DNA from: Oscillospiraceae bacterium
Lineage (GTDB): Bacteria; Bacillota; Clostridia; Oscillospirales; Oscillospiraceae
Assembly: GCA_009785345.1 (NCBI GenBank)
Contig: WQWL01000013.1
Span: 1 to 46,020, forward strand
Length of the DNA: 46,020 nt
Direction: 5' to 3'
Shown piece after piece: positions 6,954 through 33,355 of this stretch (position 1 is the first letter of the stretch; the number at the start of each line of letters is the position of its first letter). A program made the translations under genes and the position numbers. A model generated the notes under the pieces. The model searched no databases. It was not told the DNA's origin and saw only the letters and a program-made list of their open reading frames with translations.

Positions 6954-8813
6954 ATGAAGTTTATTAGTAAGAGCGGATCACGGATAAAAAAGCCTAGCAC
7001 TGAAAACGCACCTATGGTTGATAAAACAATTGAATATGAGGACACACACAATCAAGCAGGCAAGCATTTGCAACAAAATGCAACAAATCCTGCTGACTAT
7101 TTTTCAGAAAATACATTACCAACCGAAGAAGAGCATACATCTTCGCAACCTCAAGTTACAGATAAGCTCATATATCCGGAATCATCACTTAGCGCAAGAC
7201 AGCTAGAGGCGATTAATAGTGTAATCCGACCATCCGAACATGTTCCCGGGCAAATTGGATTTGAATCGTTAGATGAATCACTACAACCATCAGTACCTCC
7301 CGTTGAAGTTCCCGGAGGTGCCGGACGCGTTGTCAAGATTGTGTTTTTAGTCCTCTTCATAGTAGCTGCGGTATCCGCTGCAGCATATGGAGGTTGGTAT
7401 TGGTGGTGGACAACTCATGCGACCTTTGACTATGCCGTTCAACCTGTTGTAATTTTAGAAGGACAAGATGTTAATCCCATTGACTTTATGGATAATAATT
7501 ATGATTCAAACGAAATTACAGTAGAATTTTATAATTACAACATCGATCTAAATGTGGGAATGCAATTTGTTCCTTTGAAGTTAACATTTGGAATGCGTAC
7601 TCTCGAAACCTCCGCTCCATTATATATTTTAACCCCTGTCGAGTATGTAGTACATGAGCTTGCCGAAGAAGGCACGATTAGACCTATTGATTTTATAGCC
7701 AACCCTGAAGTAGCGTCCAGGGCTCAATTTGACATTTATTTTCTTGAAGAGCCATTGCCACTTCAAGAATATTCAACAGGCGACTTTGTATTGCATCTTG
7801 CATTAAATTCTGTACCTTTTGAAGCTGTTTTAAGAGTTGTTGATACAACCCCTCCTACTGCAATTACTGAAGATCTCTCTATTACGGTTGGTCAAGAAGT
7901 TATGGCAGAAGATTTCATAGTCGAAGTTTTCGATGCTTCTCCTATTTATTCAATATCATTTGTTGAACCACCGGACATGTACTATCCCAATCCTCAAATA
8001 GTTCAAATTGCAATTGAGGATATTTACGGAAATGTTGGATTTACTTCAGCTCAGTTAACAATAACATTCAATCAAATCCCTCCTGTAATCTCAGGTGTTC
8101 CTGAAATTATTGAATCCCAAATCGGCGCAACGATTAATTTTTATTATGGTGTTACTGCCTATGATGACTTCGGTAGAGCGTTGGAGGTTCACGTTGATAG
8201 TGTTAATGTCGATATAAACACTGTTGGAGTGTATATTGCGATTCTTTGGGCAGAAGATTCTTCTGGATTACGTACCGAGTATGAAGTTGAAGTACATATA
8301 CATGATTTCAATCCTGAAAATTTACATCAGGAAGTTGATGAAATACTCTCGGAAATACTGAATGACGATATGTCTCAAGCAGATCAAGTTTTGGCTATTC
8401 ATAATTGGGTAAGGCAAAACCTTTCCAGAGCAACCACAGATGCTGAAACACAATCAGTACTCGCAGGAGCTTATAGCGCTCTCCAGAATAGGCAGGGCGA
8501 CTCCTTCATCTACTCCGCTATTTCTAGCTTAATGCTCACTCGTGCAGGTGTCCCAAATATGCTTGTTGAACGCACATCTGATGCAGAAACAGCGCACCGT
8601 TGGGTTTTTGTAAATCCTGATGATCTCGGATGGCATCATTTCGATCCCTTCCCGACCGGTCTTACACTTGGCGATCAAACCAGCATGTTTACAAGCACAC
8701 AAGCACAAGATTTCGCGCAAAGAATCTATGGAAATGGCGGTGCTGCATATTACTTCACGTTTGATGAAAATTTATTTTTAGGCATCAGCATCGTAGCAGG
8801 GGAATCTGAGTAA
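6954..8813 (+). CDS. Membrane-anchored transglutaminase-like protein with Ser in place of the catalytic Cys
   Basis: The 619-residue protein has a polar cytoplasmic N-terminus, one transmembrane helix followed by a Trp/Tyr-rich junction (GGWYWWWTTHATFDY), several Ig-like beta domains, and a C-terminal transglutaminase-like domain. The nucleophile motif reads NRQGDSFIYS, so the usual Cys is S517. H548 (AHRW) and D564 (HHFD) are kept. The ATG at 6954 fits the paralogue at 10755, whose N-terminus is similar, and has AAAGGAAG about 10 nt upstream; an earlier in-frame ATG at 6885 lacks this support. It is probably a binding or structural domain, or a serine-dependent enzyme. It lies within the MBOAT/SGNH operon, which implies action on the cell wall. 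Confidence 0.85.
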   Translation: MKFISKSGSRIKKPSTENAPMVDKTIEYEDTHNQAGKHLQQNATNPADYFSENTLPTEEEHTSSQPQVTDKLIYPESSLSARQLEAINSVIRPSEHVPGQIGFESLDESLQPSVPPVEVPGGAGRVVKIVFLVLFIVAAVSAAAYGGWYWWWTTHATFDYAVQPVVILEGQDVNPIDFMDNNYDSNEITVEFYNYNIDLNVGMQFVPLKLTFGMRTLETSAPLYILTPVEYVVHELAEEGTIRPIDFIANPEVASRAQFDIYFLEEPLPLQEYSTGDFVLHLALNSVPFEAVLRVVDTTPPTAITEDLSITVGQEVMAEDFIVEVFDASPIYSISFVEPPDMYYPNPQIVQIAIEDIYGNVGFTSAQLTITFNQIPPVISGVPEIIESQIGATINFYYGVTAYDDFGRALEVHVDSVNVDINTVGVYIAILWAEDSSGLRTEYEVEVHIHDFNPENLHQEVDEILSEILNDDMSQADQVLAIHNWVRQNLSRATTDAETQSVLAGAYSALQNRQGDSFIYSAISSLMLTRAGVPNMLVERTSDAETAHRWVFVNPDDLGWHHFDPFPTGLTLGDQTSMFTSTQAQDFAQRIYGNGGAAYYFTFDENLFLGISIVAGESE

Positions 8814-10754: not shown

Positions 10755-12371
10755 ATGAAGTTAGTAAGTCGCAGCAGCTCTAAAGATAATAAACAAAGAT
10801 ATAAAATAAACACAAAATCTAAACAACCTCTTGCTGATGAAAGTTCGCTCGGATGGCATCTTGCTGACGAGCAACAAAATTTGCAACAAAAACGCAAAAG
10901 TTCTGCTTCAAAAGTGTTGGTGACACTACTGGTAATTCTTGTTGTTGCAGCCGCCGGCTTCGGAGGTTGGTACTACTGGTGGACTACGTACGCAACATTC
11001 GACTACCACGTTCGTCCGATTGTCATTCTTGAAGGAGAAACAGTCGGTGCTAATGATTTTCTATCCATATACACAGACACAACTCTTGTGTCTGCGGACT
11101 TCTTGTCTCATGAATTTAATGCTGTTGAAGGTCGACAAAATGTACCGCTGTTATTGACACGAGGTTGGCGTTCTTTAGAAACAACTGCATCACTCTACGT
11201 TCTTACAACAATAAATAGTATTAGTCATGAATTTGCAACTCCCGGACAGGAGCTATATGCACTTGATTTCGTGGCAAATGCAGATGTTGCTTCAGGCGTT
11301 AATTTTGACGTTGGCTTTTCCCATGAAACTTTGCCCCTTGAAGAATATGCTGTCGGCGAACATATACTACACCTTTATCTGAATCATGCTGGGTTTAATG
11401 TCATATTAACTGTTACTGACACCACCCCGCCTACAGCTGTAGCTGTTAATCACGATATCCGCATCGGTGAAGATGTTACTCCGGAAGACTTTGTAGTCGA
11501 TATTTTTGATGCATCGCCAATCGCTTCAATTGCGTTTGTCGTCGAGCCGGATGTCTTTGCTCGGCAAAATCAAAACGTCGAAGTTGTGATTGAAGACATT
11601 TTCGGAAACTATGCCACTTTTTCATCTACCCTTTATATTGAGTTAAATCAAGCTCCACCAACCATTGAGGGAACTGATACCCTCATCACAATGGTCGGTA
11701 CTCCCATACTGTATCTTACTAATGTAACTGCATATGATGATTTTGGTAGGGAGCTTGAAGTCAATGTTGATAGTAGTAATGTCGATCAACATACTGTCGG
11801 TATTTACTATGCACTCTACTATGTATACGATTTTTCCGGTCATCGTACTGAAATTGAAATTGAAGTACATGTTATCGATATTGATATTGACTATGTACAT
11901 GAAAGAGTTGATGCCGCACTTTCACAAATTTTGAGTGATGGCATGACACAATTAGAACAGGTAAAGGCCATTCACCTCTGGGTCAGACATAATGTTTCAC
12001 ATGCGAGTGTCAGAGGTGGTCCGGAGACTGCATATGAGGGCGCATATATCGCATTAAGAAACCGTCGCGGTAATTGTTTCATTTTTTATTCAATCTCCGA
12101 AGTCATGCTCACTCGTGCAGGGATTCCTAATATGCGCATAGAAAGAATACCCGGTACACGGACAACTCATCGTTGGAATCTTATCAATCCTGACAATTTA
12201 GGTTGGCATCACTTTGATACTTTCCCGACTCGTTTGGGGCAAGGTCCACATATGGCGCTTTTCACATCTTCTCAAGCTGCAGATTTTACAAGAAGAATTC
12301 GAGCAATTAACAATATGCAAAATTACTATACCTATGATCCAGAATTATATCCTGAGATTGTTTGGGATTAA
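10755..12371 (+). CDS. Membrane-anchored transglutaminase-like protein with intact Cys-His-Asp triad
   Basis: This 538-residue paralogue of the protein at 6954-8813 has the same layout: short cytoplasmic N-terminus, membrane helix with GGWYYWWTTYATFDY junction, Ig-like beta domains, and a transglutaminase-core domain. The triad is complete: C441 in NRRGNCFIF, H472 in THRW and D488 in HHFD. Family members act as cysteine peptidases or protein cross-linkers. The N-terminus is much shorter than in its paralogue. AAAGG precedes both a TTG at 10752 and the ATG at 10755; the ATG is chosen. It is the last gene before the hairpin element at 12388, ending the MBOAT operon. An envelope role is inferred; the substrate is unknown. 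Confidence 0.87.
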   Translation: MKLVSRSSSKDNKQRYKINTKSKQPLADESSLGWHLADEQQNLQQKRKSSASKVLVTLLVILVVAAAGFGGWYYWWTTYATFDYHVRPIVILEGETVGANDFLSIYTDTTLVSADFLSHEFNAVEGRQNVPLLLTRGWRSLETTASLYVLTTINSISHEFATPGQELYALDFVANADVASGVNFDVGFSHETLPLEEYAVGEHILHLYLNHAGFNVILTVTDTTPPTAVAVNHDIRIGEDVTPEDFVVDIFDASPIASIAFVVEPDVFARQNQNVEVVIEDIFGNYATFSSTLYIELNQAPPTIEGTDTLITMVGTPILYLTNVTAYDDFGRELEVNVDSSNVDQHTVGIYYALYYVYDFSGHRTEIEIEVHVIDIDIDYVHERVDAALSQILSDGMTQLEQVKAIHLWVRHNVSHASVRGGPETAYEGAYIALRNRRGNCFIFYSISEVMLTRAGIPNMRIERIPGTRTTHRWNLINPDNLGWHHFDTFPTRLGQGPHMALFTSSQAADFTRRIRAINNMQNYYTYDPELYPEIVWD

Positions 12372-12387
12372 ACCATATTACAAAGAA

Positions 12388-12478
12388 CTCACTATGGGTA
12401 GCTTTCTGCGGTTTTTCGCGTATGTAGGGCGATAAGACCCGTACTAGCGAAAAAGCGGATGAAGCTACCCATAGTGAG
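12388..12478 (+). ncRNA. Long hairpin with conserved apical loop, copy 1
   Basis: CTCACTATGGGTAGCTT (12388-12404) pairs perfectly with 12462-12478. After an imperfect middle, TTTTTCGC (12412-12419) pairs with GCGAAAAA (12447-12454), leaving a 27-nt loop at 12420-12446. The inner stem and loop differ at only two bases from copy 2 at 13201-13295, while the outer arms are unrelated in sequence yet self-complementary in both. It fills the gap between the transglutaminase-like gene and the racemase gene and ends 15 nt before the racemase ATG. There is no terminal U-tract. The RNA strand is assigned by context only. Confidence 0.6.
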
Positions 12479-12493
12479 CGGACGGGATTTCAT

Positions 12494-13195
12494 ATGAGCA
12501 CAAAAAGACCATTATTGGGAATACTTGGTGGCATGGGGACACAAGCAACTGCCAGTTTTTACGAAAAGCTACATCGTTTACAAAAGGTTAAATGCGAACA
12601 AGAGTACTTAGATATTATACTTTACAGCAAACCCTCAATTCCGGATCGCACAGCGTTTATAACAAAACAAAGCTCAGAGAATCCCCTAGATTCTCTAGTT
12701 TGCGCTGCAAAAACACTAGAGTCTTCAGGGGTTTCTTGTATTGCCATTCCATGTGCAACAGCACATTTTTTCTATGACGAACTTTCTAATACAGTTGATG
12801 TGCCTATTATTAATATGATTGATGAAACCGCTCGCTTCATAGTGAGTGAGGGTTATAAAAACATCTGCTTGTTGGCAACGGACGGATCGCTGAGAAGCCG
12901 TGTTTTTCAAGCTTCATTTGAAAAGCATGGAATTAATGCTTTATGCAATAACTCACCAGACATTGCTGATCTTCAAGCCGAGCTGATGTCTCTTATATAT
13001 GATGTAAAGCGTGGTAATGCCACAGAAACAGATGTAAATGAATTACTCAACAAAGTGGTAGAACAGTCATTAGGATGTGGTGCTGATGCAATAGTCTTAG
13101 GTTGTACTGAATTATGCATCAGTATAAATGAAACCCCCAATGTAATAAATACATTGGAGGTTTTGTCGCGAGCTGTGTTAAATAAATTGCATTAA
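12494..13195 (+). CDS. Aspartate/glutamate racemase-family enzyme
   Basis: The 233-residue protein begins with the family glycine motif GILGGMGTQAT and has the two-cysteine signature of cofactor-independent racemases: C87 in IPCATAHF and C204 in LGCTEL. Such enzymes invert amino acids through the paired thiols. The family includes aspartate racemase and broader-specificity amino-acid racemases, so the substrate is not certain. The upstream ribosome site is weak (GGACGGG), and the hairpin copy 1 ends close to it, so translation may depend on folding. The gene lies between the MBOAT operon and the adenylation/carrier operon, so it may supply a D-amino acid to an envelope-modification pathway (inference). 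Confidence 0.9.
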   Translation: MSTKRPLLGILGGMGTQATASFYEKLHRLQKVKCEQEYLDIILYSKPSIPDRTAFITKQSSENPLDSLVCAAKTLESSGVSCIAIPCATAHFFYDELSNTVDVPIINMIDETARFIVSEGYKNICLLATDGSLRSRVFQASFEKHGINALCNNSPDIADLQAELMSLIYDVKRGNATETDVNELLNKVVEQSLGCGADAIVLGCTELCISINETPNVINTLEVLSRAVLNKLH

Positions 13196-13200
13196 TATTA

Positions 13201-13295
13201 GTCCATGGCAGGCAGTTTTCAGCTATTTTTTCGCGTATGTAGGGCGATGAGACCCGTTCTAGCGAAAAAATAGATGGAAATTGCCTGCTGTGGAC
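13201..13295 (+). ncRNA. Long hairpin with conserved apical loop, copy 2
   Basis: The element starts 6 nt after the racemase stop. GTCCA...GCAGGCA (13201-13214) pairs with 13282-13295 including G-T wobbles, and a 12-bp stem (13223-13234 with 13262-13273) encloses the 27-nt loop at 13235-13261. The loop and inner stem match copy 1 apart from two bases, while the outer arms differ entirely. It lies between convergent genes and could also act as a bidirectional stop signal. Confidence 0.6.
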
Positions 13296-22977: not shown

Positions 22978-23032
22978 TTTTGTTCCGGTTAGGAGCAATA
23001 TAAGCCCGTACCCCTATATTATAAGGAGCACA

Positions 23033-23170
23033 GTTTGAATAAATTCAAACTTACGCAAGAATGTGCCAATTTACTCTCTCTTCGGGAAACCGCAAATTAA
23101 TGCACAAAATGACCATACCTTATTCATGGTTGTTTTGTGACTGAGTTTGGTGAAAGGAACGGTCATACAT
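23033..23170 (+). promoter_or_regulatory. Structured 5' leader, copy A (candidate cis-regulatory RNA)
   Basis: This leader aligns without gaps to the sortase leader (copy B, 31959-32096), with about 119 of 141 positions identical when the start codons are included. Parts in order: palindrome GTTTGAATAAATTCAAAC (23033-23050); GTGC (23063-23066) able to pair with GCAC (23102-23105) around a conserved CGGGAAACCG tetraloop hairpin; ATGACCATACC (23109-23119), complementary with two mismatches to the ribosome-site segment GGAACGGTCAT (23156-23166). Pairing of the last two would hide the ribosome site. It matches no riboswitch class I know. Confidence 0.6.
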
Positions 23171-24163
23171 ATGTTCAACTCGCGTGATAAGAAAACACAT
23201 GTTTTTACAACAACTCATCAACGAGATGAAATAAATGATGAACTTTCAATGCCACGACGTAATCGAGTCAATAATCGTCGTGGAGGTCGTCGAGTGAACG
23301 AATACAGAAAACCAAATGGTTTTATATCAGCATTTCTGAATTTATGTGCAATCTTCTTTATATGCGTCTTTATATCCTTGCTAGTTGTACGAACTGCAAA
23401 TGTGCCACAAATCATCAGGCAAACTGATTTTGTAGGAATTTTAGAGGTTATCGCGGTTGGTGAACATTCATATTACATTGTTGACCAGATTAACGCGCTT
23501 CCATTCCATAATGCACATGTAGATCTCTACGATATTGACGCTTTCATCAGAACCGAGGCTGTTTCTAACGAAATTGGAAACATACTAGGTCTGTATGCCG
23601 CTGCATTTGCAGATGGTAATCTCGATTATCACATTACTGCTAATGATGTTGTGTACGTTACAAGAAATCTAAATCCGGAATTACAAGAGCTATTCCATCA
23701 CAACATGACTGAGTCTGATCATGATGCTTTGGCAAGGAGATTGGATGATATAATGGATTTCAACTCTATAAGTGTTGCTGGTCTTATGTATGATTTTGAC
23801 ATAGGCACAACTATTCCAAGCGCTTTTCTATCTTCAACATTGCTGTGGGTTTTTGGTTTGATTAGCGCATCATTTCTATTAATTATATTTTTACTTCGTA
23901 TCAGAAGTTTTCCTGACGCATTTCTTGCAGTTGGTATTCCAATTACGATATCCGGCTTAATAATTTTTGTTATAGGTTTATTTATTGGCACTGCTCCGGC
24001 ATTGTTCGGTTATACAATACAGCGTATTTTAGGATTCCTTGATGGTCCGGCACAACTTATTACACAATACGGGCTTAGATTTGCTATCGCTGGTGGAGCT
24101 GTTATCGCACTTTCCCTCGTACTCAAAATTGTAAGTAATACACGATATAGACGCCATGCATAA
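23171..24163 (+). CDS. Membrane protein of unknown function
   Basis: The 330-residue protein has a basic cytoplasmic N-terminus with an Arg/Asn-rich patch, a first membrane helix at about 52-74, an extracellular domain to about 210 and three or more C-terminal helices. I do not recognise the family. The ATG at 23171 is chosen because GAAAGGA ends 12 nt before it, the spacing shared by several genes here; an in-frame GTG at 23147 is less likely. It is preceded by the structured leader and followed 62 nt later by the P-type ATPase, so both are probably expressed from the same leader-controlled transcript. Confidence 0.8.
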   Translation: MFNSRDKKTHVFTTTHQRDEINDELSMPRRNRVNNRRGGRRVNEYRKPNGFISAFLNLCAIFFICVFISLLVVRTANVPQIIRQTDFVGILEVIAVGEHSYYIVDQINALPFHNAHVDLYDIDAFIRTEAVSNEIGNILGLYAAAFADGNLDYHITANDVVYVTRNLNPELQELFHHNMTESDHDALARRLDDIMDFNSISVAGLMYDFDIGTTIPSAFLSSTLLWVFGLISASFLLIIFLLRIRSFPDAFLAVGIPITISGLIIFVIGLFIGTAPALFGYTIQRILGFLDGPAQLITQYGLRFAIAGGAVIALSLVLKIVSNTRYRRHA

Positions 24164-24225: not shown

Positions 24226-26991
24226 ATGCTTTGGGTAAAAGATAGTATTAGCGAGGTTCTACAGAAGCTTGATGTCAATCCTGATGTCGGGCTTAGTAAT
24301 GTTGAGGTTGAAGCACGTGTTGCTAAGCATGGAGCAAACGAATTTGACGAAGAAAAGAAGGTTACACTTTTCCAAAAAGTTCTTCATCATCTTCGCGAAA
24401 TTCCAACACTCATACTAATCGCAGCCTCTATCATTGCAACGATTGCCGCTATATTGAATGCACATGACGGCTATGGAAGTGCGAGCGACTGGGCGAAAGT
24501 TGCTGTTATTCTTATAATCGTGGTTATCAATGTTGTTCTTGGTCTTTATCAGGAGGCCAGAGCTGAAAAGGCTCTTGAAGCTCTTAAAAAGATGAACAGC
24601 TTTAAAACCACTGTTATTCGCAATGGCTCTAAGCAAATCATCGATGCAGTTGGGCTGGTACCCGGTGATATCATCGAGCTTAATGCAGGTGATGTTATTA
24701 CTGCAGATGCCAGACTCATTGAAGCCAGTAGCTTGCAAGTTGAAGAAGCTGCACTTACAGGTGAGAGTGAACCGGCAGACAAAGATGCAAATGCTGTAAT
24801 CGAAGAAGATGCTCCATTAGGTGATAGAATTAACATGGTTTATTCCGGTTGTTTGGTCACAGCCGGTAGAGCAAAGGCTGTAGTTGTTGAAACAGCTATG
24901 GAAACAGAAATGGGTAAAATCGCCCGTCTCTTATCTGATACAAAGAAACTGTTAACTCCACTGCAATTAAGACTAAAACAACTTGCCAAACGTATTTCAA
25001 TAATTGCTCTTATCTCCGGTGCTGCAATGTTTGTGGTTGGCTTCACAGTGTGGGGTAATGGCGCGCTTGAAATGCTCTTACTCGCTGTCGCGCTTGGTGT
25101 TGCTGCTGTTCCCGAAACTCTCCCAATTATTGTTACAATGATTCTTTCTTACGGTGTTTTCAACATGGTTCGTAAGAAAACAATAATTCGCAGAATACCG
25201 GCAATAGAAACCATCGGTAATACATCTGTCATTTGCTCAGACAAGACGGGCACTTTAACATTAAATAAAATGAAAATCCAGCAAGTGTGGCATGTTGATT
25301 ATGAGCCTCTTGCTGCAACTGAAGAATTTGATACAGACAGATTGCATCTAGTTGAAATGTTAGCCTCCTGCAGTAATGCAACAATCGAAGTTGTACATGA
25401 CGAAAACCGTGTCCATGATGAAGATGAGCATGTCGTTGGTGATCCTACAGAGATTGCTATTATTCGTCTGCTACATGACAAATGTCTGACCAGAGTTGAT
25501 GCTGAGAGAGAATATCCAAGAGTATTTGAACTGCCATTTGATTCAGGACGTAAGAGAATGACTACAGTTCATCATGTTGAGGATGGTTATCTCGTTATTA
25601 CTAAGGGTGCATTTGATAGATTGCCTGTTAATTGGGATCCGGATTTACACAAAAAAGCAATCGAAATTCATGATTCCTTTGCTGACAAGGCTCTCAGAGT
25701 TCTTGCTGTTGCTGTTAAGCATTACAAAGAAAAACCAACCGACTTGAGTGAAGAAGCTCTCGAAAAGGACATGGACTTCCTTGGAATGGTCGGTATGATT
25801 GACCCGCCACGTCCTGAAAGTAAAGATGCTGTTGCAAGAGCAAAAGAAGCCGGTATTAAAACTGTTATGATCACAGGTGACCATATCGGAACAGCCGTCG
25901 CTATTGCAAAAGAAATCGGTATTATGGAAGAAGGTGACAGAGCTATAACCGGTGCTGAACTTTCTACCATGAGCGAAGTTGATTTGATCGCACAGGTGCG
26001 CGGAATTTGTGTTTATGCACGTGTTAGCCCGGAAGATAAGCTTAGAATTGTGCATGCATGGGCAGCTCATAATGAAGTTATCGCTATGACAGGTGACGGT
26101 GTAAACGATGCTCCGGCACTTAAAGCTGCAGATGTTGGTGCTGCTATGGGTATCACCGGTACAGAGGTTACAAAGAACGCTGCTGACATGATAATCACAG
26201 ACGATAACTTTGCAACAATAGTCGATGCTATTTCAGAAGGTCGTACATCCTATGATAATATCCGCAAGACAATCCAGTTCCTACTCGGTGTTAACTTTGC
26301 AGAAATTTTCGTACTGCTCATGGGTATGCTGGTACTGGGTCGCACGGTTATAACTGCATTGCAGATTTTGATTATTAATGTTGTATACGATGGTATCCCC
26401 GGTTTCTTCCTTGCATTTGAGCAGGCTGAACCTGGCGTAATGAAACGAAAGCCGCTACCAAAGGGTGCAGGTGTGTTCGCTCAAAACGTTGGTGTGTTTA
26501 TCGCATTCCGTGCTATCATGTTCTCGATTTTGACGCTCTCTGCATTCGTTATTGGTTCATTCGTTCAAATCGCTCCTGTCGCATACGGTCACACGTTGTA
26601 TATTCCATGGGACGGTACTTGGACAATTGAGGCATTGCGATATGGTGGTAATTTTGCTGTTGGTATGACAATGGCATTTATGGTACTCAGCTGGTCTTCA
26701 ACGATTGATACGTTCAACACGCGTACACAGCAATCCATATTCAAAGCAGGATTCCTGTCAAACAAAGGTGTATTCTTCGCAGTAGTTGGTGCACTCGCGT
26801 TCTCAGTAGTAGTTGCACTCGCTCCCCCGCTCATGGCAATATTCAGCGTCGTCTACGTGAGCGGAATACACTGGCTCATAATGATAGGTCTCGCACTACT
26901 GCAAGTTGTCGCAGTTGAGATACTCAAGTTCTTCCTCAGACGTCGTAATAAGAAGCTTGAGATGAAAGAAAAAGCTACTACAGCAGCATAG
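24226..26991 (+). CDS. P-type cation-transporting ATPase (calcium type, P2)
   Basis: The 921-residue ATPase has all P2-type features: N-terminal cation-ATPase domain, actuator TGES motif (ALTGESEPADK), helix 4 motif VPETLPI, phosphorylation site D339 in SDKTGTLTLNK, nucleotide-binding domain, TGDGVNDAPALK hinge and C-terminal helices with NVVYDGIPG. Calcium export is the usual role of bacterial relatives. The helix-4 motif is PETLP rather than the more usual PEGLP/PEALP, so another cation is possible. It has AGGAAGGG some 14 nt before the ATG. It is probably co-transcribed with the unknown membrane protein, and a clear terminator follows. Confidence 0.93.
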   Translation: MLWVKDSISEVLQKLDVNPDVGLSNVEVEARVAKHGANEFDEEKKVTLFQKVLHHLREIPTLILIAASIIATIAAILNAHDGYGSASDWAKVAVILIIVVINVVLGLYQEARAEKALEALKKMNSFKTTVIRNGSKQIIDAVGLVPGDIIELNAGDVITADARLIEASSLQVEEAALTGESEPADKDANAVIEEDAPLGDRINMVYSGCLVTAGRAKAVVVETAMETEMGKIARLLSDTKKLLTPLQLRLKQLAKRISIIALISGAAMFVVGFTVWGNGALEMLLLAVALGVAAVPETLPIIVTMILSYGVFNMVRKKTIIRRIPAIETIGNTSVICSDKTGTLTLNKMKIQQVWHVDYEPLAATEEFDTDRLHLVEMLASCSNATIEVVHDENRVHDEDEHVVGDPTEIAIIRLLHDKCLTRVDAEREYPRVFELPFDSGRKRMTTVHHVEDGYLVITKGAFDRLPVNWDPDLHKKAIEIHDSFADKALRVLAVAVKHYKEKPTDLSEEALEKDMDFLGMVGMIDPPRPESKDAVARAKEAGIKTVMITGDHIGTAVAIAKEIGIMEEGDRAITGAELSTMSEVDLIAQVRGICVYARVSPEDKLRIVHAWAAHNEVIAMTGDGVNDAPALKAADVGAAMGITGTEVTKNAADMIITDDNFATIVDAISEGRTSYDNIRKTIQFLLGVNFAEIFVLLMGMLVLGRTVITALQILIINVVYDGIPGFFLAFEQAEPGVMKRKPLPKGAGVFAQNVGVFIAFRAIMFSILTLSAFVIGSFVQIAPVAYGHTLYIPWDGTWTIEALRYGGNFAVGMTMAFMVLSWSSTIDTFNTRTQQSIFKAGFLSNKGVFFAVVGALAFSVVVALAPPLMAIFSVVYVSGIHWLIMIGLALLQVVAVEILKFFLRRRNKKLEMKEKATTAA

Positions 26992-27124: not shown

Positions 27125-27198
27125 AATCAATAAACAGGAGGAGACTATAACTTCCTATGAATCTTTGTCAAAGTCTAGCGAAAGGAATGGTCATAACT

Positions 27199-27564
27199 AT
27201 GCAACCAATATTTGATTCTCAAAAGCCGATTTTTCAAAGTATATCGGAATGGCTAAAAGATGCAATTTTAGCAAGCATTTACAAGGAGGAAGAACAAGTG
27301 CCATCAATTACAGAAATTTCAATGCAATACAATATCAATCCTGCAACAGCATTAAAAGGTGTCAATCAACTGGTAGACTCCGGGCTGATATATAAAAAGC
27401 GAGGTTTAGGAATGTTCGTCAGCACAGGAGCCAGAGATACGCTACTACATCAACGACAAGAACAATTCTACGGAGATTACGTTGAACCGCTGGTAAGCGA
27501 AGCAAAAAATCTTCAAATCAGCGCTGATAATCTGAAAGAAATGATAGAGAGAGGATACGAATAA
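27199..27564 (+). CDS. GntR-family (YtrA-like) transcriptional repressor
   Basis: The 121-residue protein has an N-terminal winged helix (IFQSISEWLKDAILASIYKEEEQVPSITEISMQYNINPATALKG region, residues about 10-70) ending in the GntR wing KRGLGMFV, and a short helical C-terminus typical of the YtrA subfamily. The ATG at 27199 is preceded by GAAAGGA with a 12-nt spacing. Its stop overlaps the next start by one base (TAATG). YtrA-type regulators usually repress the ABC transporter encoded with them and respond to cell-envelope-active compounds. Confidence 0.9.
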   Translation: MQPIFDSQKPIFQSISEWLKDAILASIYKEEEQVPSITEISMQYNINPATALKGVNQLVDSGLIYKKRGLGMFVSTGARDTLLHQRQEQFYGDYVEPLVSEAKNLQISADNLKEMIERGYE

Positions 27565-30974: not shown

Positions 30975-31076
30975 CTATTTTTTATGTTTCGAGTTTCTAA
31001 TTCGCTTTATGATAGTCGCTATTAACAATGCTACAAGTAATACTGCAGTTGGTCCAACAAAAATTAGTAATTCCAT
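30975..31076 (-). CDS. 33-residue single-pass membrane peptide downstream of the sortase gene
   Basis: The ATG at 31076 encodes 33 residues: a hydrophobic helix (LLIFVGPTAVLLVALLIATI) and a basic tail (KRIRNSKHKK), ending in TAG. GAAAGGA precedes it with 12-nt spacing, and the upstream 40 nt closely resemble the 3' part of the sortase leader (GTTTTGTG...GTGAAAGGAATGGTCATA). It begins 51 nt after the sortase stop on the same strand, so it is the next gene of that transcript. The strong ribosome site and coherent topology support a real small protein; its function is unknown. Confidence 0.6.
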   Translation of the reverse strand: MELLIFVGPTAVLLVALLIATIIKRIRNSKHKK

Positions 31077-31127
31077 TTTTATGACCATTCCTTTCACTTT
31101 GCTCAGGCACAAAACAGCTATAATGAG

Positions 31128-31958
31128 TTACGAAGTAATGACACTGGTATTAGGAGTATCTATACCTCCAAGTCTAACAAGCTTTCCTGTAACTATAAGT
31201 CTGGCGTCGGCAAAATCTTGTTGACATGTAACTAAGCTCACTATTTTATCTCCCGCATTTACTTCCACATCAGTTTGCACAAGGGAACGACCTCGCACAA
31301 TTCGAACATAATCATAAAACTCATCGTCATTTGCAAAATAGAGTGGTGGATGGTCTCTGAATGCATGAGCAAGGTGTGCTCCGAATATTACTAGCGCATA
31401 ATCTGCGTATGGAGTATATATATATATAATAGGGTTATTATCAAAAAATTCTTGATTTCTATAGTTTCTCAGGTAACTAAACATAGCATCTGTTCGTGAA
31501 AAGTGATGTCCATAGATAAAGATGCTATAGTCAGAAAAATCGTTTTCATTTCTGTAGTCTAGATATATTGACCCACTTCTATTAACTGTCCCATCCGGTA
31601 AATGATTCAGAAAGAAGGTGTTATTACTTGGATGTTGCATGATTGGAAAATTTATTGGACTGTCTTCCAGCTCTATCCACCCAACGACTCCCGGATATTG
31701 TTCGTTTAGTGCATCGAAATCCATAAATGATATCCAAGGCTCATGCTCATAATCCGCTTCTTCCAACTCTATTGACGGGTTGCCAGTTACACCACTTCCC
31801 CGTTCCCAATTACGCGGACGTGTTTCTACACCAGCTACCATGTTATCAAAAAACGATTGACTTTGCATATCAACAATCAATTCACTGAAAAGAAAATATC
31901 CAAATACGCCGGCAGCCAATATACATACTACTAAAATTATCCACAAAAATACTTTCAT
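31128..31958 (-). CDS. Class B sortase
   Basis: The 276-residue transpeptidase has an N-terminal membrane anchor (about 3-25) and a sortase beta-barrel with H151/H152 (IYGHHF), catalytic C245 in SLVTCQQ and R253 in DARLIV. The wording VVGWIELEDSPINFPIMQ near residues 91-108 is typical of class B enzymes, which attach proteins to peptidoglycan or polymerise pili. The ATG at 31958 is 12 nt after AAGGA; an upstream in-frame ATG at 31970 touches that site. It is preceded by leader copy B. No clear sorting-signal protein is visible in the window; the truncated surface protein at the left edge could be one. Confidence 0.92.
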   Translation of the reverse strand: MKVFLWIILVVCILAAGVFGYFLFSELIVDMQSQSFFDNMVAGVETRPRNWERGSGVTGNPSIELEEADYEHEPWISFMDFDALNEQYPGVVGWIELEDSPINFPIMQHPSNNTFFLNHLPDGTVNRSGSIYLDYRNENDFSDYSIFIYGHHFSRTDAMFSYLRNYRNQEFFDNNPIIYIYTPYADYALVIFGAHLAHAFRDHPPLYFANDDEFYDYVRIVRGRSLVQTDVEVNAGDKIVSLVTCQQDFADARLIVTGKLVRLGGIDTPNTSVITS

Positions 31959-32104
31959 TGTTATGACCATTCCTTTTCTAATGCCTAGTCACAAAACGAC
32001 CTTGAATAAGGAATGGTCATTTCGTGCATTAATTTGCGGTTTCCCGTAGGGAGAGCAAATTGGCACATTCTCATGTAAGTTTGAATTTATTCAAACTTAC
32101 ATTT
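31959..32104 (-). promoter_or_regulatory. Structured 5' leader, copy B (candidate cis-regulatory RNA)
   Basis: This is the counterpart of the leader at 23033-23170, ungapped over 141 nt from the palindrome to the start codon. The palindrome is longer here (32075-32100, 11-bp stem). GTGC/AATTTGC pairs with GCAAATT/GCAC around CGGGAAACCG. ATGACCATTCCTT (32020-32008 on the minus strand) is perfectly complementary over 13 nt to AAGGAATGGTCAT (31975-31963), which contains the ribosome site of the sortase gene. The fold would block translation; another fold could free it. Confidence 0.65.
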
Positions 32105-32113
32105 GTTCTCCTC

Positions 32114-33355
32114 TTATTTTAGCAAGCGCCTAATCATGTCCAAAGCATTTAATGATGCACCTATACGAATACGCTCACGGTCATAGTACAGTTTAAGTTG
32201 ATTACAGATATCCGCTTCTCTTGTTGAAACTGCAATAAAAACTGTGCCGGGCTCCTGTCCTGATGAATCGCTGTCCGGTCCGGCTATTCCGGTAATTCCA
32301 ACACCAATATCTGCATCAAGCTTTGAGCGAACAGCAGTTGCCATTGCAAGTGCAACTTCACGGCTAACCGCTCCGTATTTATTTATCAACTTCTCGTCAA
32401 CACCTAAAAGTTCAACCTTCGACTTCTCATTATATGCAACTATGCCTCCAATGTAGACCTTTGAGGCTCCGGGGATATCGGTTAAACGTTTAGAAAGTAG
32501 TCCACCTGTACAAGATTCGGCAGTTGCAAGTGTCTGCTTTTTCTCCTTGAGTAATCCAATTACCGTATTTTCCAAACTATCTGTGTCAATTCCATATATA
32601 ATATCACCCAACATATTACATACTTGCTCTAAAATTGGTGACATCATCTCCTCAGCTTCGTGCTTTGACGCTGCTTTCGCTGTTAGTCGTAACATTACTT
32701 CCCCATCTTTCGCATATGGAGCAAGTGATGGATTTTTCATACATTCCATGATTGGACGTAGCTTTTCTTCAACAGCGCTTTCACCAAGTCCAAAAATATG
32801 TATATTATGTGAATGTATTTCTGCTTTTGACAATTTTTTAAGGTATGGTACAACACATGACTTTAGCATCGCCCGGCATTCTCTTGGCGGCCCCGGAAGC
32901 ATTATCACATGCTTTCCTTCTGCTTCAAACGCACATCCGGGTGCAGTTCCAACACCATTATCAAACACAATACAACCTTCGGGCAACTCAGCTTGCCTTA
33001 GATTATTTTCGGTCATTTTCATATGTGGGAGGCGTTTTTCAAAAAACGAACGAATTTTATCTGCTTCTGCTTCGTTGGTGATGAGTTTCTTTCCGAATGC
33101 TTCTGCAAGAGTTTCTTTTGTTACATCATCAAATGTCGGTCCAAGACCACCGGTTGTTATAATGATGTCTGCTCGACTCTTCGCAATTTTAACCGCTTGC
33201 TTCATACGTCTAGGGTTATCCCCTACTACCGTATGAAAGAATACGTTAATTCCAAGCTCAGACAGCGAGCGCGAAACATCCTGCGCATCCGTGTTTGCAA
33301 TACCTCCAAGCAAAAGCTCTGTACCAACAGCTATAATTTCTGCAGTATATGTCAT
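32114..33355 (-). CDS. cinA: CinA family protein (nicotinamide-nucleotide amidase, competence/damage-inducible)
   Basis: The 413-residue protein has the N-terminal molybdopterin-binding-like domain (AEIIAVGTELLLGGIANTDAQ, TTGGLGPTFDD, LPGPPRE) and the C-terminal CinA amidase domain (TLATAESCTGGLLSKRLTD, GIAGPDSDS). Members hydrolyse ADP-ribose and/or deamidate nicotinamide mononucleotide. Both domains are full length. It sits in a minus-strand run with thiI and yifB. Its stop codon is only a few bases from leader copy B, so read-through into the sortase gene is possible. Confidence 0.95.
   Translation of the reverse strand: MTYTAEIIAVGTELLLGGIANTDAQDVSRSLSELGINVFFHTVVGDNPRRMKQAVKIAKSRADIIITTGGLGPTFDDVTKETLAEAFGKKLITNEAEADKIRSFFEKRLPHMKMTENNLRQAELPEGCIVFDNGVGTAPGCAFEAEGKHVIMLPGPPRECRAMLKSCVVPYLKKLSKAEIHSHNIHIFGLGESAVEEKLRPIMECMKNPSLAPYAKDGEVMLRLTAKAASKHEAEEMMSPILEQVCNMLGDIIYGIDTDSLENTVIGLLKEKKQTLATAESCTGGLLSKRLTDIPGASKVYIGGIVAYNEKSKVELLGVDEKLINKYGAVSREVALAMATAVRSKLDADIGVGITGIAGPDSDSSGQEPGTVFIAVSTREADICNQLKLYYDRERIRIGASLNALDMIRRLLK

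Follow-up and report, generated by a model that had tools for sequence, protein, structure and literature searches.

Two leaders of 141 nt, at 23033-23173 (+) and 32096-31956 (-), were recognized in the window, i.e., the whole 46,020-nt stretch of Oscillospiraceae DNA analysed here, and the genes behind them are unrelated. What is shared by two such genes, and how it came to stand before both, is the question raised by this locus. The two leaders align without a gap with exactly 119 identities, the approximate number given by a sequence-only reading of the locus, and the ungapped runners-up to the 23033 copy in a scan of the whole window have 57-61 identities. The genes assigned in that reading were confirmed, i.e., a sortase gene (PF04203, E 1e-8) behind one leader and, behind the other, an ORF that matches no Pfam family, with a P-type cation ATPase gene next in line. 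The 13-nt perfect complementarity proposed for the sortase copy is present (ATGACCATTCCTT with AAGGAATGGTCAT), and that between the anti-Shine-Dalgarno (anti-SD) and SD strands of the 23033 copy is imperfect. The answer developed below, to which a probability of about 0.7 is given, is that the leader is a structured RNA element of ~140 nt, interspersed and mobile-derived, which replaces the ribosome sites of genes. The features are as follows, where P1 is the left-end palindrome, P2 the domain next to it, the OFF helix the pairing of the anti-SD strand with the element's own SD strand, and the ON helix its pairing with an alternative partner strand.

31963..32100, minus strand: copy 1, before the sortase gene (covariance-model bounds, 163.2 bits)
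32108..32113, minus strand: old SD GAGGAG of the sortase gene, 5' of the insertion and directly past the cinA stop (sequence; left-end SD enrichment)
32075..32100, minus strand: P1 of copy 1, left-end palindrome GTAAGTTTGAATAAATTCAAACTTAC (sequence; covaries)
32024..32066, minus strand: P2 domain of copy 1, with GTGC...GCAC closing stem, AATTTGC/GCAAATT and UCCC/GGGA hairpin (sequence; covaries)
32008..32020, minus strand: anti-SD strand of copy 1, ATGACCATTCCTT, common to the OFF and ON helices (sequence, pairing analysis)
31989..32003, minus strand: ON partner strand of copy 1, AAGGTCGTTTTGTGA, able to capture the anti-SD strand and GCAC (sequence, pairing analysis)
31963..31975, minus strand: own SD strand of copy 1, AAGGAATGGTCAT, 3' side of the OFF helix (sequence; covaries)
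31131..31958, minus strand: sortase-domain gene downstream of copy 1, its ATG 4 nt past GGTCAT (PF04203, E 1e-8)
23029..23166, plus strand: copy 2 (covariance-model bounds, 143.3 bits)
23023..23028, plus strand: old SD AAGGAG 5' of copy 2 (sequence)
23033..23050, plus strand: P1 palindrome of copy 2 (sequence)
23063..23105, plus strand: P2 domain of copy 2 (sequence)
23109..23119, plus strand: anti-SD strand of copy 2, ATGACCATACC (sequence)
23126..23140, plus strand: ON partner strand of copy 2, ATGGTTGTTTTGTGA (sequence, pairing analysis)
23154..23166, plus strand: SD strand of copy 2, AAGGAACGGTCAT (sequence)
23171..24163, plus strand: ORF downstream of copy 2, without Pfam match, the P-type ATPase gene being next at 24226 (Pfam scan)
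27180..27201, plus strand: relic of the right end, GAAAGGAATGGTCATAACTATG, where a GntR-family gene begins, with GGAGG farther upstream (right-end search)
31074..31095, minus strand: relic of the right end, GAAAGGAATGGTCATAAAAATG, where a small ORF past the sortase gene begins (right-end search)

The two relics of the right end were absent from the sequence-only reading. Other repeats were also noticed in the window. A 50-nt hairpin-like repeat (TTTTTCGC...GCGAAAAA) at 12412-12461 and 13227-13276, 90% identical and 815 nt apart, flanks the ORF 12494-13195 and is another possible interspersed repeat. A 125-nt direct repeat (8532-8656 and 12105-12229, 72% identical) lies within two ORFs and probably represents paralogous domains.

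Related genomes were searched for the leader, as the sequence-only reading had proposed, and further copies were found. The own genome of the window, a draft of 3.5 Mb in 237 contigs with 86% completeness, gave 41 DNA matches longer than 100 nt. The covariance model was seeded with 34 of the first 40 own-genome copies, six atypical or incomplete ones being left out of the alignment. The model matched 71 times in the own genome, 56 times in the congener G015 and 17 times in the congener G013. At least one match was found in 13 of 19 congeneric genomes, the own genome included (range 0-71), and none in the other six, one of which is 97% complete. Three own-genome contigs (C7, C127 and C219) end inside near-identical copies; recent copies in this draft are therefore probably under-counted. 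At the family level, 50 of 300 genomes matched the model, and in a draw from the class, with stricter filters, the two matching genomes among 391 were the own genome and one more from this family. When named genomes were scanned by pattern, at least 102 stretches were obtained, from metagenome-assembled genomes (MAGs) titled Oscillospiraceae, Ruminococcaceae, Clostridia, Clostridiales or Eubacteriales and from one Ruminiclostridium sp. Judged by their titles, many of the MAGs among the matches listed come from rumen or other herbivore guts. Two Paenibacillus stretches (L241 and L288) fitted the pattern and reached only 23.6 and 24.5 bits with the model (E 0.0016 and 0.0009); they were treated as chance or as a bare hairpin. 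The exact pattern had no match in viral contigs, nor had one copy used as query in plasmid and phage records. On present evidence, the element appears confined to one family of uncultured Oscillospiraceae/Ruminococcaceae-type bacteria. In one copy (L096:1501-1675), the loop ahead of the SD strand is enlarged by an inverted repeat of ~35 nt.

The position of the element was analysed in 219 distinct copies, which remained of 240 model hits after duplicates and copies with less than 60 nt behind them were dropped. The element lies in sense orientation to the downstream gene. In 203 of the 219 copies it is followed by a frame that spans at least 60 aa or leaves the available piece; under the same frame condition, the start codon is 1-7 nt past the element in 192 and at exactly 4 nt in 151. 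The element's own AAAGG site is near its right end, GAAAGGNATGGTCAT, which is usually 4 nt ahead of the start codon. The 16 copies scored as having no ORF include genes missed by the test (L088, L153, L116, L117 and L068, whose 56-aa product is presumably ribosomal protein L32) and a few copies away from gene starts. At four loci (L154, L163, L170 and L249, of which L170 had passed the frame test), the probable start, with an SD of its own, is ~20-45 nt farther on.

Whether an inner ATG of the element generally serves as the start was considered. Of the 185 copies having one, 153 have it in frame, but the spacer counts speak against such use: the out-of-frame spacers of 3 and 5 nt (14 and 9 copies) outnumber the in-frame spacers of 1 and 7 nt (5 and 1), and the peak at 4 nt therefore looks geometric. 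At two loci, L261:4703-4844 (MVIIIEF...) and L259:5777-5916 (MIITIEE...), the downstream frame is opened by the inner ATG and no other ATG start was seen near, hinting at N-terminal additions derived from the element.

The downstream genes are diverse. A Pfam scan of 124 of the 195 listed downstream proteins, i.e., 50 from the own genome and 74 from relatives, found no family in more than two of them. The genes include those of ATP synthase A, topoisomerase (topA), ribosomal protein L9 (rplI), ScpB, tRNA synthetases (hisS), the RNA polymerase Rpb1 domain (rpoC), thymidylate synthase and phosphofructokinase, as well as a gene which, by eye, we take to be rplX. The idea that the leader and not the gene is the shared part is thus borne out. 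The proposed link between surface-protein anchoring and cation transport is not, because the copies precede unrelated genes and the two genes of the window are not specially linked.

Orthologous loci reveal how the element came to these positions. By the model, it is present in one of 14 congeneric rplX loci (only G015) and in one of 17 congeneric topA loci (only the own genome). In the empty rplX loci, the SD (e.g., CGGAGGTGATATA) leads directly into the ATG, and the left flank in G015, GGAGGTAATATA, is nearly identical. The empty topA loci have a purine-rich SD-like stretch ahead of the ATG, pronounced at most of these loci but weak at some. For hisS, G015 has the filled site and the own genome the empty one. 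Of the tandem paralogues at L060, one reads GATAGGGAGGTGTTATAT-ATGAATAAAG without the element and the other GATAGGGAGGCA-element-TCTA-ATGAATAAAG with it. This evidence is limited to the pairs that were read, of which rplX, topA, L012 and L060 were rechecked with the covariance model; 47 queries listed with an empty relative were not used as a count, as several of them (e.g., L292, L294, L297, L046 and L050) visibly hold the element. It was also observed that the filled rplX gene of G015 (L132) begins three codons earlier (MNK-VHVK) than in 13 other congeners (M-H or M-N), the old ATG position now being GTA.

The left end gave a second line of evidence. Among 137 copies selected by their palindrome and right end, 95 have an SD-like tetramer no more than 16 nt from the left palindrome, compared with 9.3% of 1200 random windows. 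In the unfiltered set, such a tetramer is found at the left end in 58% of 216 copies and in 7-11% of windows farther upstream. Uninserted ORF starts, crudely set at the first ATG, served as a reference, and 239 of 551 have one. The empty sites and the SD enrichment at the left end demonstrate, on the level of sequence, that the element was placed between the old SD of a gene and its start codon. In tandem stacks, the newer copy lies directly past the GGTCAT of the older one.

The RNA fold was evaluated by covariation. In the 34 own copies, pairing in the model of P1, P2 and the OFF helix reaches 92.8%, and 14 pairs show changes on both sides, compared with 5.2 in shuffles; with the ON helix in place of OFF, the values are 92.6% and 10 such pairs, compared with 4.6. 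In 97 matches from relatives, 34 of the 36 pairs of P1, P2 and OFF changed on both sides, and 483 double-change cells were counted against 100 in shuffled and 48-96 in slid alignments; this alignment was made to the covariance model and leans towards its structure. The stems thus covary upstream of unrelated genes, the observation by which the sequence-only reading had suggested judging the fold, and its proposal of a leader able to hide its own ribosome site gains strong support for the OFF pairing. The terminal palindrome and the GTGC/GCAC-closed domain of that reading, i.e., P1 and P2, both covary. The conserved CGGGAAACCG tetraloop hairpin is not supported, with 81.7% pairing compared with 79.9% in shuffles and an equal covariation score in the 34 own copies; a UCCC/GGGA hairpin over the same bases covaries. 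The covariation of P1, P2 and OFF supports a structured leader that, by its compensatory changes, is selected as RNA.

The ON helix has weaker evidence. In the 97 matches, it alone gave 52 double-change cells compared with 21.8 in shuffles and is 83% paired, compared with 92.6% for the OFF helix. Over 214 copies, the anti-SD strand is complementary to its own SD strand at 7.53 of 8 positions and to a swapped SD strand at 5.50; the corresponding values for the ON strand in all copies are 7.08 and 6.21. In 42 copies with a variant anti-SD strand, the fit of the own ON strand was 6.14 of 8, compared with 6.10 for the common anti-SD strand, i.e., no gain, which counts either against ON or against the 8-nt test, as this test is blind to internal mismatches. 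Where the copies had been chosen by a pattern fixing the anti-SD and SD strands, the ON covariation of 12 compared with 8.3 cells says little. Variants affecting all three strands can be seen within single lineages, i.e., ATGACCAT/ATGGTTGT/ATGGTCAT, GTCCAT/ATGGAC/GGACTT, ATGGTCAT/ATGACCGT/GGACCAT and ACGGTCAT/GTGACTGT/ATGACCAT. G-U pairs are common in the ON helix, as expected of RNA. As in a riboswitch, a conserved fold with an alternative pairing of the SD is therefore indicated, strongly for OFF and less so for ON.

The comparison with Rfam, also proposed beforehand, gave no match at gathering score in the window. The region of the sortase copy (31850-32200) had only two chance-level hits (E 2.5 and 3.4), and ten loci of relatives had no match at E<=1. 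As far as these searches tell, the fold is outside Rfam release 15, and its covariation is enough to found a family.

The strand arrangement is, as modelled, the layout of a translational switch. Because the GCAC of P2 is reused in the ON helix, P2 and ON compete. Ensemble predictions lean to OFF for 171 of 218 copies and to ON for 25. When the energies of the two constrained folds are compared in 199 copies, the median difference is 5.6 kcal/mol to the advantage of OFF, and 28 copies favour ON; in the own genome, the lead is only 1.4 kcal/mol (median of 51 copies), and 15 copies favour ON. For the two window copies the predictions are opposite: OFF by 7.2 kcal/mol for the sortase copy and ON by 6.7 kcal/mol for the 23033 copy. 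Since OFF is favoured in most copies, essential genes would be silenced, unless folding is kinetic or helped.

Eroded copies were searched by the right end GAAAGGAATGGTCATNNNNATG with at most one mismatch, which finds only well-kept relics. It occurs 76 times in the own genome, and the reversed control gave 0. Of 75 recovered right ends, 70 are followed by an ORF that has at least 40 aa or leaves the fetched piece. The anti-SD strand is still present in 44 of the 75 and absent in 31 by an 11-nt test with 5% false positives in a shuffled control; an 8-nt test (55 of 75) was too lax, and the 11-nt test was adopted. The ATGGTCAT part thus persists at right ends that have lost its partner strand. 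A reading of the list, not a count, rarely shows an old SD beside these relics, as a takeover by the element's site would predict.

A subfamily without SD (L105, L107, L109 and L110) has the palindrome TTTTGCTATGCAAAAGCATAGCAAAA or nearly so, the right hairpin AACTTCATGC/GCATGAAGTT, and the same left and P2 parts. Its right-end hairpin is kept (8/8) and, by eye, the ON helix is missing. The 8-nt ON score of 5-6 is not separating alone, as some start-codon variants also score 6. Of three loci examined, L105 and L110 are between convergent genes and L109 is ~40 nt before an ORF. With only four members, the subfamily hints that the ON helix may belong to the start-codon way of life.

Signs of mobility were searched at the ends and among enzymes. 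Dispersed copies and empty orthologous sites were found, as in a MITE or small interspersed repeat. A match of left and right dinucleotides (64% compared with 35%) had suggested a target duplication; it vanished within subfamilies, where no excess of identity was found, and is explained by subfamily. No terminal inverted repeats were seen by eye when the left end GTTTGAA.. was compared with the complement of the right end, ATGACC... In the draft genomes, the Y1 transposase of IS200/IS605-type elements gave three matches in the own genome and none in G015 or G013, the RVT_1 reverse transcriptase of group II and other retroelements none in the three, and the transposase PF02371 of IS110-type (bridge RNA) elements none in the own genome and G015 and one in G013. 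None of these three families is thus common to both strongly amplified drafts. The sequence-only reading had named, as one finding that would overturn it, a mobile element free of folding constraint; the mobile-like part was found, i.e., interspersed copies and empty sites, and the lack of constraint is contradicted by the covariation.

The boldest reading, a new kind of mobile RNA element that targets initiation regions, is given somewhat less than even odds. It would insert a fixed few nt before start codons, take over ribosome binding and give each gene a two-state switch. In the main reading, the element's AAAGG would replace the old SD as the ribosome site of the gene, and the anti-SD strand would choose between hiding this site (OFF) and leaving it open (ON). 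As the ON helix takes the GCAC that closes P2, P2 formation would favour OFF and P2 loss would favour ON. Selection on spreading copies may keep the fold, and older copies would erode until little beyond the ribosome site remains. Because it brings its own ribosome site, the element could survive where insertions should harm.

Two further readings can be judged by the evidence above. An ordinary leader, inherited or copied with its genes or locally duplicated, would stand before start codons merely because leaders lie there, and some tandem stacks (L010, L013, L021, L027 and L028) could indeed be local duplications. It is very improbable, as the orthologous sites that are empty, with an SD-like stretch at the ATG, and the old SD upstream of filled ones already contradict it, and the downstream genes are unrelated. 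Even harder to credit is a conserved leader peptide (ATGTGCCAA...) that controls the downstream gene through attenuation. A frame of 26-28 codons is found in 28 of 106 copies with that start, but the lengths range from 2 to 42 codons, 13 of the 106 run open, and subfamilies differ by 1- and 4-nt indels. The peptide was rejected, since the reading frame is not kept across copies.

Two more readings were weighed. The element may be a DNA parasite that uses its right-end hairpin to move, with the ON helix as a decoy that spares translation without regulation. The interspersed and patchy distribution agrees with this, and so does the subfamily that keeps the hairpin without the ON helix and lies between convergent genes or ~40 nt before an ORF. 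The predicted preference of ON for RNA and not DNA failed, however, with a median ON-minus-OFF shift of +0.5 kcal/mol and only 84 of 199 copies as expected, and none of the transposase families searched in the drafts supplies an enzyme. A parasite of this kind is judged somewhat unlikely, and an RNA-specific decoy role of ON was dropped, as RNA and DNA energies show no tilt. Alternatively, the leader may be a riboswitch or protein-binding translational switch of unknown class, in which P2 is the sensor, binding locks P2 and OFF, and the spread is a global regulon whose copies are kept as useful control. The two possible partners of the anti-SD strand, the competition of ON with the P2 closing stem, and the near balance of states in the own genome fit such a switch. 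Against it, the 124 of 195 downstream proteins scanned form no coherent gene set and share no function, congeneric genomes hold from 0 to 71 copies, many copies are eroded to the right end, and Rfam gave no match. This switch is considered unlikely.

Many gene starts in these genomes are easier to place with the help of the element. If the main reading is true, a small repeat rewires translation initiation at dozens of genes, essential ones included, and the host genes are not destroyed by insertion because the element carries its own ribosome site. Mobile DNA would thereby lead directly to gene control at the RNA level, and the testable question arises of how start codons become targets.

A literature search, largely of openly accessible papers, found no description of such an element. 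Several known systems are comparable in part. In translational riboswitches and RNA thermometers, an anti-SD strand that can also pair elsewhere sequesters the SD. The element resembles them in the two partners of its anti-SD strand and the competition of P2 with the ON helix, and differs in having no Rfam match or coherent regulon, in its mobile-like spread and in its erosion at individual genes. HEARO/IsrB-type RNAs are found adjoining ATGA/GTGA. Like them, the element is a structured RNA of mobile character beside an ATG-type motif, but it is much shorter, brings a ribosome site and has no Rfam hit above chance (E up to 5 in the sortase-copy region and up to 1 in the ten loci of relatives). 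In the Clostridioides difficile c-di-GMP riboswitch with its group I intron, a self-splicing intron separates the ribosome site from the start codon. The element likewise parts ribosome site and start codon, but it is ~140 nt long and carries its own SD; all splicing ribozymes known to us are longer than 140 nt.

A further likeness is to small interspersed repeats. BOX, RUP and SPRITE repeats and MITEs are described as short, RNA-forming, present in many copies per genome, inserted into one another and thought parasitic (PMC3049150, PMC10969869). BOX/RUP-type repeats are reported to be intergenic and over-represented between convergent genes (PMC3049150). The element is also short and RNA-forming, with many copies per genome and one copy inserted at another; it differs from MITEs in that neither terminal inverted repeats nor a target duplication could be seen. 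An insertion that separates SD and start codon does not appear in the descriptions consulted of BOX-type repeats and MITEs (PMC3049150, PMC10969869). As far as these descriptions go, the element is set apart from BOX, RUP and SPRITE by lying nearly always just before a start codon and by supplying the ribosome site.
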